DNA of 64,000 nucleotides from Sulfolobus sp. A20 (GTDB lineage: Archaea; Thermoproteota; Thermoprotei_A; Sulfolobales; Sulfolobaceae): assembly GCF_001719125.1 (NCBI RefSeq), contig NZ_CP017006.1, positions 62,001 to 126,000 of the forward strand, written 5' to 3'. Position numbers and translations under genes: made by a program. Below the pieces are notes generated by a model. The model ran no database searches, was not told the origin of the DNA, and worked only from the letters and a program-made list of their open reading frames with translations. Shown here piece after piece: positions 9,445-63,417 of this stretch (position 1 is the stretch's first letter; each line of letters starts with the position of its first letter).

Positions 9445-9777
9445 ATGACATCTAATATTGAAGTTGAAGATTACATCATTAAAGTTGCAAGAACGTTAAG
9501 TATATCTGATCTTAGAGCATTTAATACCAGTATAGTATCTGACTATCAAAAATTTTTCGACCTTATCCTTCCAAAAGATGTCATTAATGTTTTAGTAGTA
9601 TTACCATTAAACGAGAATGATATGGCTAATAAGATTAGGGAAGCAATAAGTAAAGTCAGACCTAGTGCGTCACTTACTATAATGTATAGTAAAAATGCTA
9701 GCCAAAAAATTTACATGGGATACTACTCTTCAGCTAGTAAAATTCAAGATTTAGCTAAAAAATACAGCATTAGATAA
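9445..9777 (+). CDS. Conserved-looking small cytosolic protein
   Basis: A 110-residue soluble protein of mixed alpha/beta character with no cysteines and no signal peptide. A TATA-like element lies shortly before the ATG (TATTTATACC in the 9400-9415 region). I do not recognise the family. It is a single-gene unit between the beta-helix protein and the decayed tnpB element. Confidence 0.5.
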   Translation: MTSNIEVEDYIIKVARTLSISDLRAFNTSIVSDYQKFFDLILPKDVINVLVVLPLNENDMANKIREAISKVRPSASLTIMYSKNASQKIYMGYYSSASKIQDLAKKYSIR

Positions 9778-58045: not shown

Positions 58046-59203
58046 ATGTTAAACAAGCTAATCCCATATTGGGTCTTAGTATTCTCAATAGGCTTTGGCT
58101 GGTTCATATTATCTCCTATCATACCAGTATTGAGTAATTTGTTCAAAGTCTCAATTAGCTCAATACTGTTAATTATCTCGTCTTACGGATATTCAATGGC
58201 AATTTTGGGAATCCTAGCAGGCTACTTATCAGCCAGATTTACTGTAAAGACTTCTCTAATACTTTCTAGCATTATCTCATTGATTGGACTTATTGGCAGA
58301 GCACTATTATTGAATTTCACTACTTTTCTAACCTTTGGGATAATAGCGTCTCTTGCGTATCCATTAGCAGTTGCTCCAGTGGGGAGTATAGCTGAGGCAT
58401 TCTTTAAAAACAGATCACATACAATAGTGGGCATAAGTATTGGCTTACTTTTTTTGGGAATGGCTATGGGCTCTTTCATTGGACCTTTTATATATGATTA
58501 CTTAGGTTTATCTTTAACTCTATGGATCCCAACAGTATTGTCCCTTATAGCGTTTATATTAGTTTTACTAGGTACAAGGGATTACCCTAAGAACTTTAAG
58601 AGGTCTTTAAGGGGAAGTTTTAATCTAGGAATGATAAAGAACTGGTACGTAGGATTAGCAATAGCTTCAGTTTCAGTAATGTTCGGGAGTATAGCGTCAA
58701 CAGTATTAATCTTACATAAGGTAATTCCCTTGATTGCCATTAGTTTAGGAGGATTATTTGGAGGATTAACCTTCTTAGGATCAGCTTTAGGAGCGATTAT
58801 ATTGCCTTCCATATTCGAATCCTTTAACTTAAGGCTAGGGTTAATCATTGCAGCATTGCTTTCCTTCATATCTATAGTAATAATGTCGATGAGCTTAACC
58901 CTTAACTTATCATTTACTCTAATAGGCTTAGGTTACTTCCTATTTGGATTCTTTGGCAATGCCTATTGGTCAATGGCACTAACCTCTGTTACAAACTACG
59001 TTTCAGATCCTGCAGATGCAGGGTTAGCTACTTCGATGTATAGTGCAATTACTAACGTAGGAGTTGCAGTGATTCCCGTATTTATGAGTAGTTTATTTGA
59101 TAATCTATCAACGATGCTAGAGGGCGATGGTATAGTAATAATTATGGAACTAATAGCCTTTATACTGTCTTTCACTTTAAGGGTTAAGAAAGTAGAAACG
59201 TGA
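58046..59203 (+). CDS. MFS transporter
   Basis: 385 residues with about twelve helices. The loop between helices 2 and 3 (GYLSARFTVKTSLIL) has the G-x3-D/S-R-x-G-like pattern of the major facilitator superfamily, and the second half repeats the arrangement. No substrate is predicted. A likely leaderless start (ATATATGCGTCGATGTT region). It ends next to the small cysteine gene on the other strand, with no overlap. It may or may not be functionally related to the peptide operon downstream. Confidence 0.85.
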   Translation: MLNKLIPYWVLVFSIGFGWFILSPIIPVLSNLFKVSISSILLIISSYGYSMAILGILAGYLSARFTVKTSLILSSIISLIGLIGRALLLNFTTFLTFGIIASLAYPLAVAPVGSIAEAFFKNRSHTIVGISIGLLFLGMAMGSFIGPFIYDYLGLSLTLWIPTVLSLIAFILVLLGTRDYPKNFKRSLRGSFNLGMIKNWYVGLAIASVSVMFGSIASTVLILHKVIPLIAISLGGLFGGLTFLGSALGAIILPSIFESFNLRLGLIIAALLSFISIVIMSMSLTLNLSFTLIGLGYFLFGFFGNAYWSMALTSVTNYVSDPADAGLATSMYSAITNVGVAVIPVFMSSLFDNLSTMLEGDGIVIIMELIAFILSFTLRVKKVET

Positions 59204-59353
59204 TTAATCATCAACAGTATATTTTCTTTTCTTTGTGATAATAAGACGCTTTTTCCCCTCTTCAATATAATAATACAGAGGATTATCACAAATTTCCTGT
59301 CCTTTAATAATTACACAACCAATAGTACAAGCTATCTTTTTGTACTCTCGCAT
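59204..59353 (-). CDS. Leaderless 49-residue cysteine protein next to the RiPP-like operon
   Basis: A 49-codon frame from ATG 59353 to TAA 59206-59204, starting MREYKKIACTIGCVIIKGQE and ending KKRKYTVDD. A TATA element (TTTATATATAA, 59373-59383) sits 25 bases upstream, exactly right for a leaderless archaeal gene. Three cysteines (residues 9, 13 and 22) lie in ACTIGCVIIKGQEICDN. The motif KGxxICD also occurs in the candidate RiPP precursor at 59545-59652. It may be a second precursor, a small zinc-binding regulator or an immunity protein. Confidence 0.5.
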   Translation of the reverse strand: MREYKKIACTIGCVIIKGQEICDNPLYYYIEEGKKRLIITKKRKYTVDD

Positions 59354-59498
59354 ATTTTACTACATAAAAGATTATATATAAAAACTTTACTATAATTACT
59401 TATTAGTATATGTGTTGATTTTTAAAGCATTTTTTAAGTGTTAATTGTTAGTTCTTAAAGATTTTATACTTTACGACAAATTATTAATGAAAGGTATT

Positions 59499-59541
59499 AA
59501 GAGGAATATATATATAAATGAAATATAAATATTTGGGTGAG
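59499..59541 (+). promoter_or_regulatory. Promoter and ribosome-binding site of the RiPP-like operon
   Basis: GAGGAATATATATATAAATG (59501-59520) looks like a BRE plus TATA element, and GGGTGAG at 59535-59541 is a ribosome-binding site a few bases before the ATG at 59545. The spacing predicts a transcript that begins about 5-10 bases before the start codon. Confidence 0.5.
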
Positions 59542-59544
59542 AAA

Positions 59545-59652
59545 ATGTCCGAGCTTCAAGGAGCATTATTATCTCACATAGCATCAATATTTGCTGGTTT
59601 AACAAGTTGTGGTAAAGGGACAGTAATTTGCGATACAGGTACAGTGGGTTGA
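59545..59652 (+). CDS. Candidate RiPP precursor peptide (35 residues)
   Basis: A 35-codon gene preceded by GGGTGAG and followed 14 bases later by a SPASM radical-SAM gene. Residues 1-19 (MSELQGALLSHIASIFAGL) can form an amphipathic helix, as leader peptides do. Residues 20-35 are TSCGKGTVICDTGTVG, with Cys22 and Cys29 among Thr, Ser, Gly and Val. This size, position and composition are those of a precursor whose cysteines are linked to backbone or side-chain carbons by a radical-SAM enzyme (sactipeptide or ranthipeptide type). No GG cleavage site is seen. It is too small for default gene calling. The function of the product is unknown. Confidence 0.65.
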   Translation: MSELQGALLSHIASIFAGLTSCGKGTVICDTGTVG

Positions 59653-59666
59653 GGTGATTAATAAAA

Positions 59667-60743
59667 ATGGGAGAAAATGAAAGAGACCTTTTTTATATTT
59701 ATACTACATTAACGTGTAATCTATCTTGTACACACTGTTACGTTCCTTCCTCACCTAAATTGATTATTAAAAATGAACTCTCTTTAGATGAGTTTAAAAA
59801 GATCATAGATTACGCTGAAAAATTAAAGGTTAAAGAAATTAGACTAACAGGGGGAGAACCACTTTTAAGAAAGGATATTATAGAAATAATTAATTATACA
59901 ATTTCCAAGGACATTACGGTAAGTATAGAGACTAATGGTCTTTTAATAGATGATAATTTTCTGAAATCAATTTCTGACCTAAGCAAAGTACATATAAGTG
60001 TAAGTTTGGATGGCCCTAAGGAAGTTCATGAAAGTATTAGAGGAGCTAACACCTTTGAAAGAACAGTTAATTCCTTACACCTTTTAAAACAATATAATGT
60101 AAAAAGGACAATAATAACTACCCTTGTAATAACAGACTGGATATATAATGAAGAAAAAATAAATAGTTTTATTGACCTCCTTATTAACCTATCCCCTAAT
60201 GTATGGTACGTCCACGTATGGGTAAGCCCAGAGGGTAGGGCAAAACTACTTAAGCCTACTAAGGTTAAAGAGATTTACGATGCAATAAGACTATTCTATT
60301 CATTAAGAATAAAATTAGATGGAAAAATTCCCATAGTCTTAAACGTTCCCCCAGCAGTAATTCCAGAGGAATTTACCGAATTCATGCTAAAGGACACTCT
60401 ATTAAATTTGGGTTGCCATTGGTGGAGAATAGCTGGAATCAGTAGTAATGGTAATGTATCAATCTGTCATAGATTCACACTATTCCCAGAAATGAGAGCT
60501 GGAAATGTGAGGAGAGATGACTTAAACAAAATCTTCTCGCACGAGATACTCAACAGAAAGGAAATAAAGCTTAAGGGTATCTGTGGAAAATGCCTAATAA
60601 AAGACTATTGTAGAGGCTTTTGCAGAGCTGATGCATACGAGTTCTACAGGGACTTTAACGCACCACATCCATTATGTCAACTATTTTATGAAAACGGTCT
60701 CCTTAACAGAAACTTCATAGCAGGGGAGGAAGATGACGGATGA
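59667..60743 (+). CDS. SPASM radical-SAM peptide-modifying enzyme
   Basis: 358 residues. The radical-SAM cluster is C17-x3-C21-x2-C24 (TCNLSCTHCY), followed by the SAM-binding TGGEP at 61-65. The C-terminus has the whole seven-cysteine SPASM signature: C250, C267, C306-x2-C309-x5-C315-x3-C319 and C337, which binds two auxiliary [4Fe-4S] clusters. Enzymes with this build cross-link or oxidise ribosomal peptides (AlbA, PqqE, SCIFF maturase, anSME). No separate RRE domain is visible. The preceding 35-codon gene is its obvious candidate substrate; GAGGTGAT precedes the start. The stop overlaps the exporter start by 11 bases. An alternative is sulfatase or haem-related chemistry, but no such partner is near. 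Confidence 0.88.
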   Translation: MGENERDLFYIYTTLTCNLSCTHCYVPSSPKLIIKNELSLDEFKKIIDYAEKLKVKEIRLTGGEPLLRKDIIEIINYTISKDITVSIETNGLLIDDNFLKSISDLSKVHISVSLDGPKEVHESIRGANTFERTVNSLHLLKQYNVKRTIITTLVITDWIYNEEKINSFIDLLINLSPNVWYVHVWVSPEGRAKLLKPTKVKEIYDAIRLFYSLRIKLDGKIPIVLNVPPAVIPEEFTEFMLKDTLLNLGCHWWRIAGISSNGNVSICHRFTLFPEMRAGNVRRDDLNKIFSHEILNRKEIKLKGICGKCLIKDYCRGFCRADAYEFYRDFNAPHPLCQLFYENGLLNRNFIAGEEDDG

Positions 60744-61872
60744 CAAGCGTAGAAAACTTACACTTAGATATTATATTTACACGGTAGACTACTTGACCAG
60801 CTTTATAAGCATGGTAAGAAATTTAATTTTCCCGATTTACGCATATGAGTTGGGATATTCTCCCTTAATAATTGCCTCTTTCTTTGGTACATATTATATA
60901 CTATCCGCGATATTATCATATCCATCTTTATTCGTGGTCAAGAGAATAGGGGCAAGAAATTCAGTATTATTATCTAATCTAGTAGACGCGATATCGCTTC
61001 TCCTGTTATCATTTAATTCCTTAACGTTCTTCTATTTATCGTTTGGACTACTGTCGCTAGCCCAGGTCTTTATAACGCAGTTTAGAACACTAATTGTATA
61101 TAATTTTGATGAGAATGAGTTAAAGGGAATCTACTCAAAAAGGTATAGTATCACAGTGATGGGCTACTTATCTTCTATAGGCTTATCAGCTATTACAAAT
61201 TATTTCGGAATAGTCAAGTACATATTCTTACCGTTAGGGATATTTTATTTAACTACAATATTCTTCATCTTATTGTTTAGACCAACTACGTCTGAAGTGA
61301 AGAATTTCAAATTAGTACCATCTAAGGAGGCTATTTTTGTAGTGATTATACCTAGCTTCATAGCTTCTTTTGTAACTGCTATAGTGATGAAGCTACTTCA
61401 AGTCTTTTATTTAAAATTAGATTTAAATGGCTTTACTGTAAGCATAATATATCTGTTAGAGTATGTTGTAAATCTAATATCGTTTAGAGTAGCTGATAAG
61501 GTTAAAGAGGAGACTTTGATTAAGTATTACATCCCATTTTCTATTATCTCAAGCGTTCTAGTCTCTTTAATATCATTAAGAATTTATATAGCGAGTGTAT
61601 CAGCACTACTGGCATCAGATTTTATTGATGCACTAATAACCGTTGTAAACTCTATCCTATTTGTTAAGTTATTGAAGAGACTTGGCCAGGTTGAAGTTAG
61701 TAATGTATTGCAAGAAATGTTCGGAAGGTTCGGACAAACACTTGGAGTTATTATGGAAGGATATCTATTATCAATAGGGTTTTATGCAATACCGTTTATA
61801 ATAGGGGCTATTGTTAGTTTAGTATTCCGAGTTTACGGTTATGAGTTCTATAAGAAAATAAAGGTAATTTAA
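60733..61872 (+). CDS. MFS-type exporter of the RiPP-like operon
   Basis: 379 residues with about twelve membrane helices in two halves (FPIYAYELGYSPLIIASFFG, VVKRIGARNSVLLSN in the helix 2-3 loop). The start lies 11 bases inside the end of the radical-SAM gene, so the two are translationally coupled. By context it would export the modified peptide, or protect the producer by pumping it out. It is not closely similar by eye to the MFS protein at 58046-59203. Confidence 0.8.
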   Translation: MTDDKRRKLTLRYYIYTVDYLTSFISMVRNLIFPIYAYELGYSPLIIASFFGTYYILSAILSYPSLFVVKRIGARNSVLLSNLVDAISLLLLSFNSLTFFYLSFGLLSLAQVFITQFRTLIVYNFDENELKGIYSKRYSITVMGYLSSIGLSAITNYFGIVKYIFLPLGIFYLTTIFFILLFRPTTSEVKNFKLVPSKEAIFVVIIPSFIASFVTAIVMKLLQVFYLKLDLNGFTVSIIYLLEYVVNLISFRVADKVKEETLIKYYIPFSIISSVLVSLISLRIYIASVSALLASDFIDALITVVNSILFVKLLKRLGQVEVSNVLQEMFGRFGQTLGVIMEGYLLSIGFYAIPFIIGAIVSLVFRVYGYEFYKKIKVI

Positions 61873-61908: not shown

Positions 61909-63417
61909 TTACTTTCTCCTGTTTATAACTAATACTAAAGCAATAATTATGACTAAAACTACAACTGCTATCATTAATATTTCGACGTTGGTAAATGGCG
62001 TCTGTATTGATGGTTTATAGCCGTAAACTATGTAATAAGTAGTTGATGGATCGTCGAAGACGATTATCTTCCCGTTATATATAAAATAGTCGTTAGGATT
62101 CAATTGAACCATACCATTACTAGTCTGTTTAAACACAACAAAAGTCTCATTCTTTAGCAAGCTTACATTGAAAACTATGTATCCACTTATTGTACTATTA
62201 ACTTTAACAACTTGAGCAGTGTAGTGATTAGAGTTTAGAGTAATATTGGTAACGTTAACATACGAGGGAGAAGCTATTCTAACATACTCAGCGGTTCCGT
62301 TTGGGAATACGGTCACGTATTCCCCATAGCCGTTAACATTAACGCTAACTAACATCGCAGGCTCTATTACTACAACTTGATGATATAATTGAACTTCAGC
62401 TGTACTCTCCACTCCCTTATCAGTTATCTCAATCACGACTGGAATATTACTAACGCTTATCATGCTTGATACCTTAGCCTTTCCGTACTCTGCATTAGGA
62501 TTGATCACAAGCTTCATATGGGACTCCACGTTATTGATAGTCAGATTGAATAAGAATCCATTATGAGAGAAATAGGATGATACGTAAGAATTGTCTAAAT
62601 CTCCTATTACACTACCATTTACTCCAAAGAACTCAATATTAGTAAACTGAGCATCAATTTGCAAATTAAATGAGGAGAAAGCCGTAAGACCCTTAACTTC
62701 TCCTCTCCAAATCATTGCTGGGACATAGGTTCCATTAAAGTAGGCTATACTCGTATTATATGGTGCCTCACTGGTCATTCCATTGTAAGTGAAGACCTCA
62801 TTACCATATCTTCTTGGAAAAGTATTGGTAAAGCTTAAAGTATATTGTGAATATCCCGATAACGTAAGGTTAACCTTCAAGAGGGATAAGGATACGCTTT
62901 TGGTGTATTGCGTTTCAGTATGTGATATATTAAAAGTTACATTAGTAAAAGTAGTTCCATTCAGAAACTCTAAAACTAAAGTTGCCGTGTTGTTGAAGTA
63001 AGCTATACCAGAAATCTCATTAGAAGTATTTAAGAATCCAGCCCATACTAGTTCTCTGACGAAATTAGGCTCAATTAATATAACTCTAGCTAGTTGGGGA
63101 ATTTGTGAATAAACGTTTATGCTAAATGGTGTTACGTTGATTTGTAGGTTTCCACTATATCTTTGTATACTACCTATTGTTACGTCATATTTATACTGTG
63201 TATAAGTCAATGTTTCCATATTAGTGGTTGATGTTGAGTTGTAAACGATACTAGAATAGCTATAAGTCACCCCGTTTCTAGCAATCATCAAATCTGACGA
63301 ATATTGTTGGTACTTTACTATACTGGCATCTCGTTGATTACTCGCCATTCCTAAGCTAATTAATGATGGAAATGCAAGTAGCACAATAATTACTAAAATA
63401 AGGGATATTTTTCTCAT
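61909..63417 (-). CDS. Secreted, anchored surface glycoprotein; paralogue of 27314-28966
   Basis: 502 residues with a signal peptide (1-25), a beta-rich extracellular part with numerous NxS/T sequons, and a C-terminal helix ending INRRK. DYFIYNGKIIVFDDPSTTYY near the end matches the YFMLNGKIIVYDDPASEYY region of the 27-kb protein, and FFGVNGSVIGD matches FYGVNGTVLGY. It lacks the Ser/Thr stalk of that paralogue. Function unknown; convergent with the exporter gene and followed upstream by a ribbon-helix-helix gene. Confidence 0.7.
   Translation of the reverse strand: MRKISLILVIIVLLAFPSLISLGMASNQRDASIVKYQQYSSDLMIARNGVTYSYSSIVYNSTSTTNMETLTYTQYKYDVTIGSIQRYSGNLQINVTPFSINVYSQIPQLARVILIEPNFVRELVWAGFLNTSNEISGIAYFNNTATLVLEFLNGTTFTNVTFNISHTETQYTKSVSLSLLKVNLTLSGYSQYTLSFTNTFPRRYGNEVFTYNGMTSEAPYNTSIAYFNGTYVPAMIWRGEVKGLTAFSSFNLQIDAQFTNIEFFGVNGSVIGDLDNSYVSSYFSHNGFLFNLTINNVESHMKLVINPNAEYGKAKVSSMISVSNIPVVIEITDKGVESTAEVQLYHQVVVIEPAMLVSVNVNGYGEYVTVFPNGTAEYVRIASPSYVNVTNITLNSNHYTAQVVKVNSTISGYIVFNVSLLKNETFVVFKQTSNGMVQLNPNDYFIYNGKIIVFDDPSTTYYIVYGYKPSIQTPFTNVEILMIAVVVLVIIIALVLVINRRK

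Follow-up and report, generated by a model that had tools for sequence, protein, structure and literature searches.

The sactipeptide streptosactin of Streptococcus (GggA/GggB) has 14 residues and two unnested thioethers, Cys25-Ser28 and Cys31-Gly34, and is matured by one SPASM enzyme (PMC8172795). Two other maturases have an AuxI with three Cys: in RumMC2, the bacterial enzyme for ruminococcin C, three Cys are assigned to AuxI (Cys394/413/462) and four to AuxII, its RRE is required and the 44-residue product has four thioethers (PMC8188230), while the thermocellin maturase CteB (PDB 5wgg) combines a full SPASM domain with an AuxI that is held by three Cys and has an open site (PMC10452713). 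From archaea, radical SAM (rSAM) RiPP clusters are on record as antiSMASH bulk predictions, with ranthipeptide and sactipeptide labels among them, and the archaeal RiPP products that a 2025 survey lists as characterised are lanthipeptides (PMC12144867). As to antagonists in the Sulfolobales, only the protein sulfolobicins have been described (PMC10105419).

Here we describe a locus from Sulfolobus sp. A20, an organism of Costa Rican origin (PMC5127849) whose genome is a single contig of 2,688,317 bp; "the window" denotes the whole stretch of 64,000 nucleotides that was analysed. The locus encodes a 35-residue peptide, an rSAM/SPASM enzyme and an MFS transporter, and the cassette recurs in one genome of another genus (G028) and one of the same genus (G402). 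We consider it very likely that this is a RiPP cassette whose enzyme modifies the 35-mer. Like streptosactin, the window peptide has two Cys, each with a candidate acceptor at i+3, and its core, counted from C22, also spans 14 residues; the G402 core CDVGVICGVG even has the identical C-x2-G-x2-C-x2-G-type spacing. In contrast, about 90 N-terminal positions of the StsB-family model are absent from the window enzyme (its residue 7 falls on profile position 94), and it is there that other sactisynthases carry an RRE; the streptococcal cluster also has its own protease, whereas the window cassette has none. The window enzyme resembles CteB and RumMC2 in its predicted three-Cys AuxI, but CteB has an N-terminal RRE and acts on a different peptide. 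It differs from anSME, SuiB and methanogen AhbD, in which AuxI has four Cys, and from PqqE, for which a full AuxI ligand set is reported. AhbD (TIGR04545) likewise unites rSAM and SPASM parts without an RRE, yet the methanogen protein has eight SPASM Cys and no precursor peptide. While the general kind of rSAM RiPP system is already known, what is new here is an RRE-less, MFS-coupled, mobile cassette in an aerobic thermoacidophile.

Layout of the locus

The 35-mer has the sequence MSELQGALLSHIASIFAGLTSCGKGTVICDTGTVG, and the Pfam matches of the two larger gene products (Radical_SAM 107.5, SPASM 27.1 and MFS_1 50.8 bits) all lie above cut-off. An earlier note, made from the DNA letters alone, had described a 35-codon gene with its own ribosome-binding site, a gap of 14 bases to the enzyme gene and an overlap of 11 bases between the latter and the MFS gene. 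All of this holds: GGTGA is found directly 5' of the ATG of the peptide gene, and gap and overlap are exactly as given (Table 1). Together with the strong Shine-Dalgarno motif TGAGGTGAT over the peptide stop codon, which we take to be a perfect complement of the Sulfolobales 16S 3' end, this spacing indicates that the three genes form what appears to be a tight operon. A promoter scan with a sigma-70 model, which is not meaningful for archaea, gave no score above shuffles.

Table 1. Features of the cassette and its upstream region, in window positions.
Feature	Position	Strand	Remarks
Divergent 49-aa ORF, putative optional accessory	59204..59353	-	Cys conserved at three positions (CTxGC...CDNPL); sole orthologue in G402
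Conserved upstream box, probable cassette promoter element	59472..59504	+	ACGACAAATTATTAATGAAAGGTATTAAGAG; three upstream regions aligned
Shine-Dalgarno-like GGTGA ahead of the 35-mer	59536..59540	+	within GGGTGAGAAAATG; GGTGAGAAAATG identical in G028
Precursor peptide gene, 35 aa	59545..59652	+	leader MSELQGALLSHIASIFAGLTS, core CGKGTVICDTGTVG bearing CxxG twice
Strong Shine-Dalgarno ahead of the enzyme gene	59650..59658	+	TGAGGTGAT; overlaps the 35-mer stop codon
RRE-less radical SAM/SPASM enzyme, 358 aa, predicted maturase of the 35-mer	59667..60743	+	3 + 7 Cys
MFS transporter, predicted exporter and/or self-protection	60733..61872	+	74% and 51% identity in two other cassettes

Further genes border the cassette. 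A second MFS gene lies just upstream (58046-59203, +); we rejected it as a cassette member, because its sequence is unrelated to that of the cassette MFS protein and it is absent beside the other cassettes. Convergent with the cassette (61909-63417, -) is the gene of a secreted-looking 502-aa protein that has a hydrophobic segment in its C-terminal part and matches no Pfam family. The divergent 49-aa ORF reads CTIGC...ICDNPL in the window and has no NCBIfam match; its sole orthologue in the 31 genomes, at 40% identity, adjoins the G402 cassette, and it is absent from the G028 genome.

Cysteine inventory of the radical SAM/SPASM enzyme

The SAM-cluster motif CX3CX2C of the enzyme is formed by C17/C21/C24. 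The complete seven-Cys SPASM signature, which the initial reading had already spelled out, is confirmed as C250-x11-G-x4-C267, C306-x2-C309-x5-C315-x3-C319 and C337. It corresponds to the SPASM peptide-maturase motif CX9-15GX4C ... CX2CX5CX3C ... C, which is invariant in the three orthologues, and every orthologue has exactly 10 Cys, three for the SAM cluster and seven for the SPASM domain. By the standard assignment, AuxII would presumably be held by C306, C309, C315 and C337, and AuxI by C250, C267 and C319. With only 3 + 7 Cys at hand, AuxI is predicted to be one ligand short and thus to rest on three Cys. Such a cluster speaks for cysteine chemistry without proving it, as a non-Cys fourth ligand is possible. 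By sequence, the closest solved structure is CteB, which matches across the rSAM and SPASM parts; an AlphaFold2 model from a shallow alignment has a mean pLDDT of 55, falling below 50 in the SPASM part, and is too poor for geometry. None of the NCBIfam equivalog cut-offs is reached: the best score belongs to the heme b synthase AhbD (TIGR04545; 138.7 bits, cut-off 500), the mycofactocin maturase model gives 121 bits and the streptosactin-type StsB model 111.4 bits (cut-off 625).

An RRE, usual though not universal among SPASM peptide maturases, is not fused to the enzyme, whose first cluster Cys is residue 17, and there is no PqqD-like gene in the cassette. PqqE also has no RRE of its own and uses PqqD (PMC8326336). 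Elsewhere in the A20 genome, a stand-alone PqqD-like gene follows the gene for a single-stranded DNA-binding protein (SSB), its start overlapping the stop of the latter (L110, G000:C1 near 2026769); the product, adjoining SSB, is the single PqqD-like protein found in this genome. It is possible that this protein acts as an RRE in trans, but each of the six Sulfolobaceae genomes checked has a PqqD-like match, with or without the cassette (L110, L105-L109).

Conservation and movement of the cassette

The enzyme occurs in two of the 30 other Sulfolobaceae genomes, with 83% identity in G028 and 74% in G402, and the remaining full-length matches in the 31 genomes have 34% identity or less; no fourth copy was found across 229 genomes of the class. 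Within the 31 genomes, the peptide is found in exactly the three that bear the enzyme, such that neither occurs without the other, and the MFS gene stands 3' of the enzyme gene in all three cassettes. The earlier note had claimed an archaeal RiPP operon and had named conservation of the peptide frame beside the enzyme in relatives as one point on which this might fail. Both other enzyme-bearing genomes retain the frame beside the SPASM gene, together with the MFS gene, which lends the claim support.

The homologous ORFs, MSELQRAILNHIQSINPDHVCIIGIVICDVG in G028 (L003:1386-1481) and MLEAIEIPEMSELQLRLLDHISSIEAIGCDVGVICGVGTT in G402 (L035:1354-1476), end just before the enzyme gene; an internal ATG in the latter would yield a 31-mer starting with MSELQ (L035:1381-1476). 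Aligned with the window peptide they have 15 invariant columns, of which S2, E3, L4, Q5, L9, H11, I12, S14 and I15 fall in the leader, with the shared pattern MSELQ..LL.HI.SI, and C22, G25, V27, I28, C29 and G32 in the core, with the shared pattern CxxG-(x)-VI-CxxG. Both Cys and the Gly at +3 of each are thus constant, as is the VI ahead of the second Cys, and the two positions inside each Cys-Gly pair are variable (CGKG-TVI-CDTG, CIIG-IVI-CDVG and CDVG-VI-CGVG); directly after the second Cys stands D, D or G, so that the Asp is not kept in G402. This is the arrangement expected of a RiPP cassette: a short precursor beside the enzyme, with a conserved leader and a core that has diverged around invariant CxxG and VI.

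Searched against whole genomes, the 35-mer finds its best G028 and G402 matches exactly at the ORF next to the enzyme gene (E 0.003 and 0.13). A profile of the three precursors run over the 31 genomes returns its own members at E 3e-18 or better, with the next best at 0.03, but includes its own targets; the fair test is leave-one-out, in which HMMs recover the third precursor at E 2.3e-9, 2.5e-9 and 4.3e-5 per 1e5 ORFs, values that none of 2000 shuffles approaches. Synonymous divergence of the precursor exceeds non-synonymous divergence when the window copy is set against each of the other two (Fisher p 0.03 and 0.01). Taken together, these comparisons show the 35-codon ORF to be a real gene under coding selection. 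Its pN/pS is about 0.5-0.7 and that of the enzyme 0.16-0.25, a stronger constraint on the latter that is expected of a maturase relative to its precursor.

How did the cassette come to lie in genomes of two genera? The surroundings of the three copies are unrelated, and in the enzyme tree the window groups with G028, apart from its genus-mate G402 (100/93). The SSB and PqqD-like proteins, taken as controls, have 56-59% identity between A20 and G028 and 87-89% between A20 and G402, the reverse of the order found for the enzyme. Horizontal transfer of the cassette between genera is therefore the most likely history. Loss is also apparent: G113, a genus-mate of G028, has the flanks of the G028 cassette, but in place of the latter only 142 bp of the enzyme at 93% identity, a remnant that matches over 54 residues; the rest of the enzyme is missing, as are the precursor and the MFS gene. 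This deletion scar (L061, G113:C4, about 9590-9740) is bordered by cdc6 and tRNA-Ala, at the site that the complete cassette occupies in G028. The genome contigs scanned with the enzyme gave only three distant partial matches; viral contigs, compared with the enzyme, with a profile of it and with the outgroup peptide described below, gave weak rSAM matches and no close relative; and among plasmid and phage records the matches listed all have less than 30% identity.

The best enzyme match outside the family comes from another class (G055; 170 bits, the next being 127; 34% identity) and is sister to the Sulfolobales enzymes in the tree (100/93, long branches). It belongs to an apparent RiPP locus (L100, G055:C14, 5902-10726) with an ABC transporter, a 61-aa ORF, a divergent TldD-like protease and a convergent rSAM/SPASM gene. 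The 61-aa ORF, which precedes the protease gene, ends in ACTPGTCGTGNCEAGYCVSGRVIT, with the four CxxG repeats CTPG-T-CGTG-N-CEAG-Y-CVSG. The protease matches Pfam PmbA_TldD and, on the model for housekeeping TldD of archaea, gains only 150 of 635 bits; removal of a RiPP leader by TldD/E is known from microcin B17 (PMC5810440). That a single peptide next to the enzyme's nearest relative has four CxxG units suggests that CxxG is the unit that the enzyme recognises. The two loci share a sister enzyme and a CxxG-repeat core, but L100 differs in its four repeats, in having its own protease and an ABC rather than an MFS transporter, and in its convergent enzyme gene, whose product has extra Cys (e.g. 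C240). These last two features make the link looser, and it is based on a single genome and a long branch. The enzyme is absent from the relatives of G055 in its class. A scan of about 50 distant rSAM loci for small same-strand ORFs with Cys, no more than 300 nt away, returned none that resembles the precursor; the G055 peptide came to light only on inspection of the wider locus. A three-CxxG DNA pattern matched in 42 of 398 genomes, mostly in low-complexity or other-frame stretches, and only the G055 ORF is precursor-like; beyond the Sulfolobales, a CxxG family thus rests on one genome.

A candidate thioether peptide and its alternatives

How might the cassette make and use its product? We envision a scenario whereby the 35-mer is produced with its conserved N-terminal half as leader, and this leader would be recognised by the rSAM/SPASM enzyme without an RRE. 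The enzyme would then cleave SAM and abstract a hydrogen from Gly or another acceptor, and a substrate Cys, held at the open site of AuxI, would close the thioether. Among the possible topologies we favour two separate, unnested rings, C22-G25 and C29-G32, as in streptosactin, each lowering the mass by 2 Da (-4.03 Da in all, which would take the 35-mer from a monoisotopic mass of 3436.704 to 3432.673). An unlinked host protease might remove the leader, which would give a core of 1305.569 if the cut fell directly ahead of C22, and the MFS protein might export the product, protect the producer, or both. The patchy, horizontally moved occurrence of the cassette points to a possible role in competition with close relatives. 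Counter to this scheme, there is no protease gene in the cassette, and neither enzyme nor cassette has an RRE, a domain that is N-terminal in known sactisynthases and required there for modification (PMC8188230). Thioether chemistry of some kind is nevertheless probable. The sactipeptide- or ranthipeptide-like product proposed at the outset is compatible with a three-Cys AuxI, and the conserved CxxG pairs would favour, within that range, two Cys(i)-Gly(i+3) thioethers, a specific topology that we put forward tentatively.

Other chemistry on the same peptide is possible, if somewhat doubtful. The thioethers might be of the ranthipeptide type, joining Cys to a beta or gamma carbon, for instance that of D30/T31, or they might be nested, or a C-C link might form at V27/I28, residues that are likewise invariant. 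CteB is the closest solved structure, and an open-site AuxI has been described for ranthipeptide enzymes (PMC10452713). However, the Asp acceptor is not conserved, the Gly at +3 of both Cys is invariant, and in the outgroup peptide CxxG comes four times, separated by spacers that vary. One may also ask whether the substrate is not the 35-mer but the divergent 49-aa protein, with the 35-mer as an accessory. Three Cys of this protein are conserved, and it is confined to the vicinity of the cassette in A20 and G402, but it is missing from the G028 genome, whose cassette retains peptide, enzyme and MFS gene, and it is transcribed divergently; we regard this reading as highly improbable.

Just as improbable is an enzyme of heme or tetrapyrrole synthesis (AhbD/NirJ-like), or another small-molecule maturase, next to an incidental 35-codon ORF. 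AhbD gives the top NCBIfam score and these enzymes have a SPASM domain of similar layout (PMC10452713); that score is nonetheless far under its cut-off, the enzyme forms a clade distinct from the conserved Sulfolobaceae paralogues, purifying selection acts on the peptide, which accompanies this enzyme alone, and the cassette is patchy and mobile, unlike heme synthesis. Alternatively, the peptide may be the precursor of a signal or a cofactor, as for PQQ or mycofactocin, with the MFS protein exporting or importing a product that is no antagonist. This would fit the score of the mycofactocin maturase model and the lack of an obvious immunity gene besides the MFS gene, but the three sites have no common partner dehydrogenase or processing enzyme, and a core that diverges while the leader stays is typical of antagonistic or signalling RiPPs. 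On balance we consider such a role unlikely.

In the literature searched, with most subscription journals outside its scope, we found no report of a thioether-type RiPP product from Sulfolobus, in agreement with the earlier note, which knew of none from the Sulfolobales. Returning to the thioether reading, it is conceivable, though we propose it with reserve, that the cassette represents a distinct archaeal RiPP family in which an RRE-independent SPASM thioether synthase acts on CxxG-repeat cores, which is mobile in the Sulfolobales and, in another archaeal class within the phylum, takes a four-repeat form accompanied by a TldD-like protease, and whose products serve antagonism between close relatives, in hot acid and in aerobes. 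In this cassette the precursor is defined and the modification motif conserved, the masses can be tested, and A20 is a cultured host. A thermoacidophile would here be the source of a thioether peptide, the RRE-free synthase would be a compact tool, and the known antagonists of the Sulfolobales would be joined by a modified peptide.
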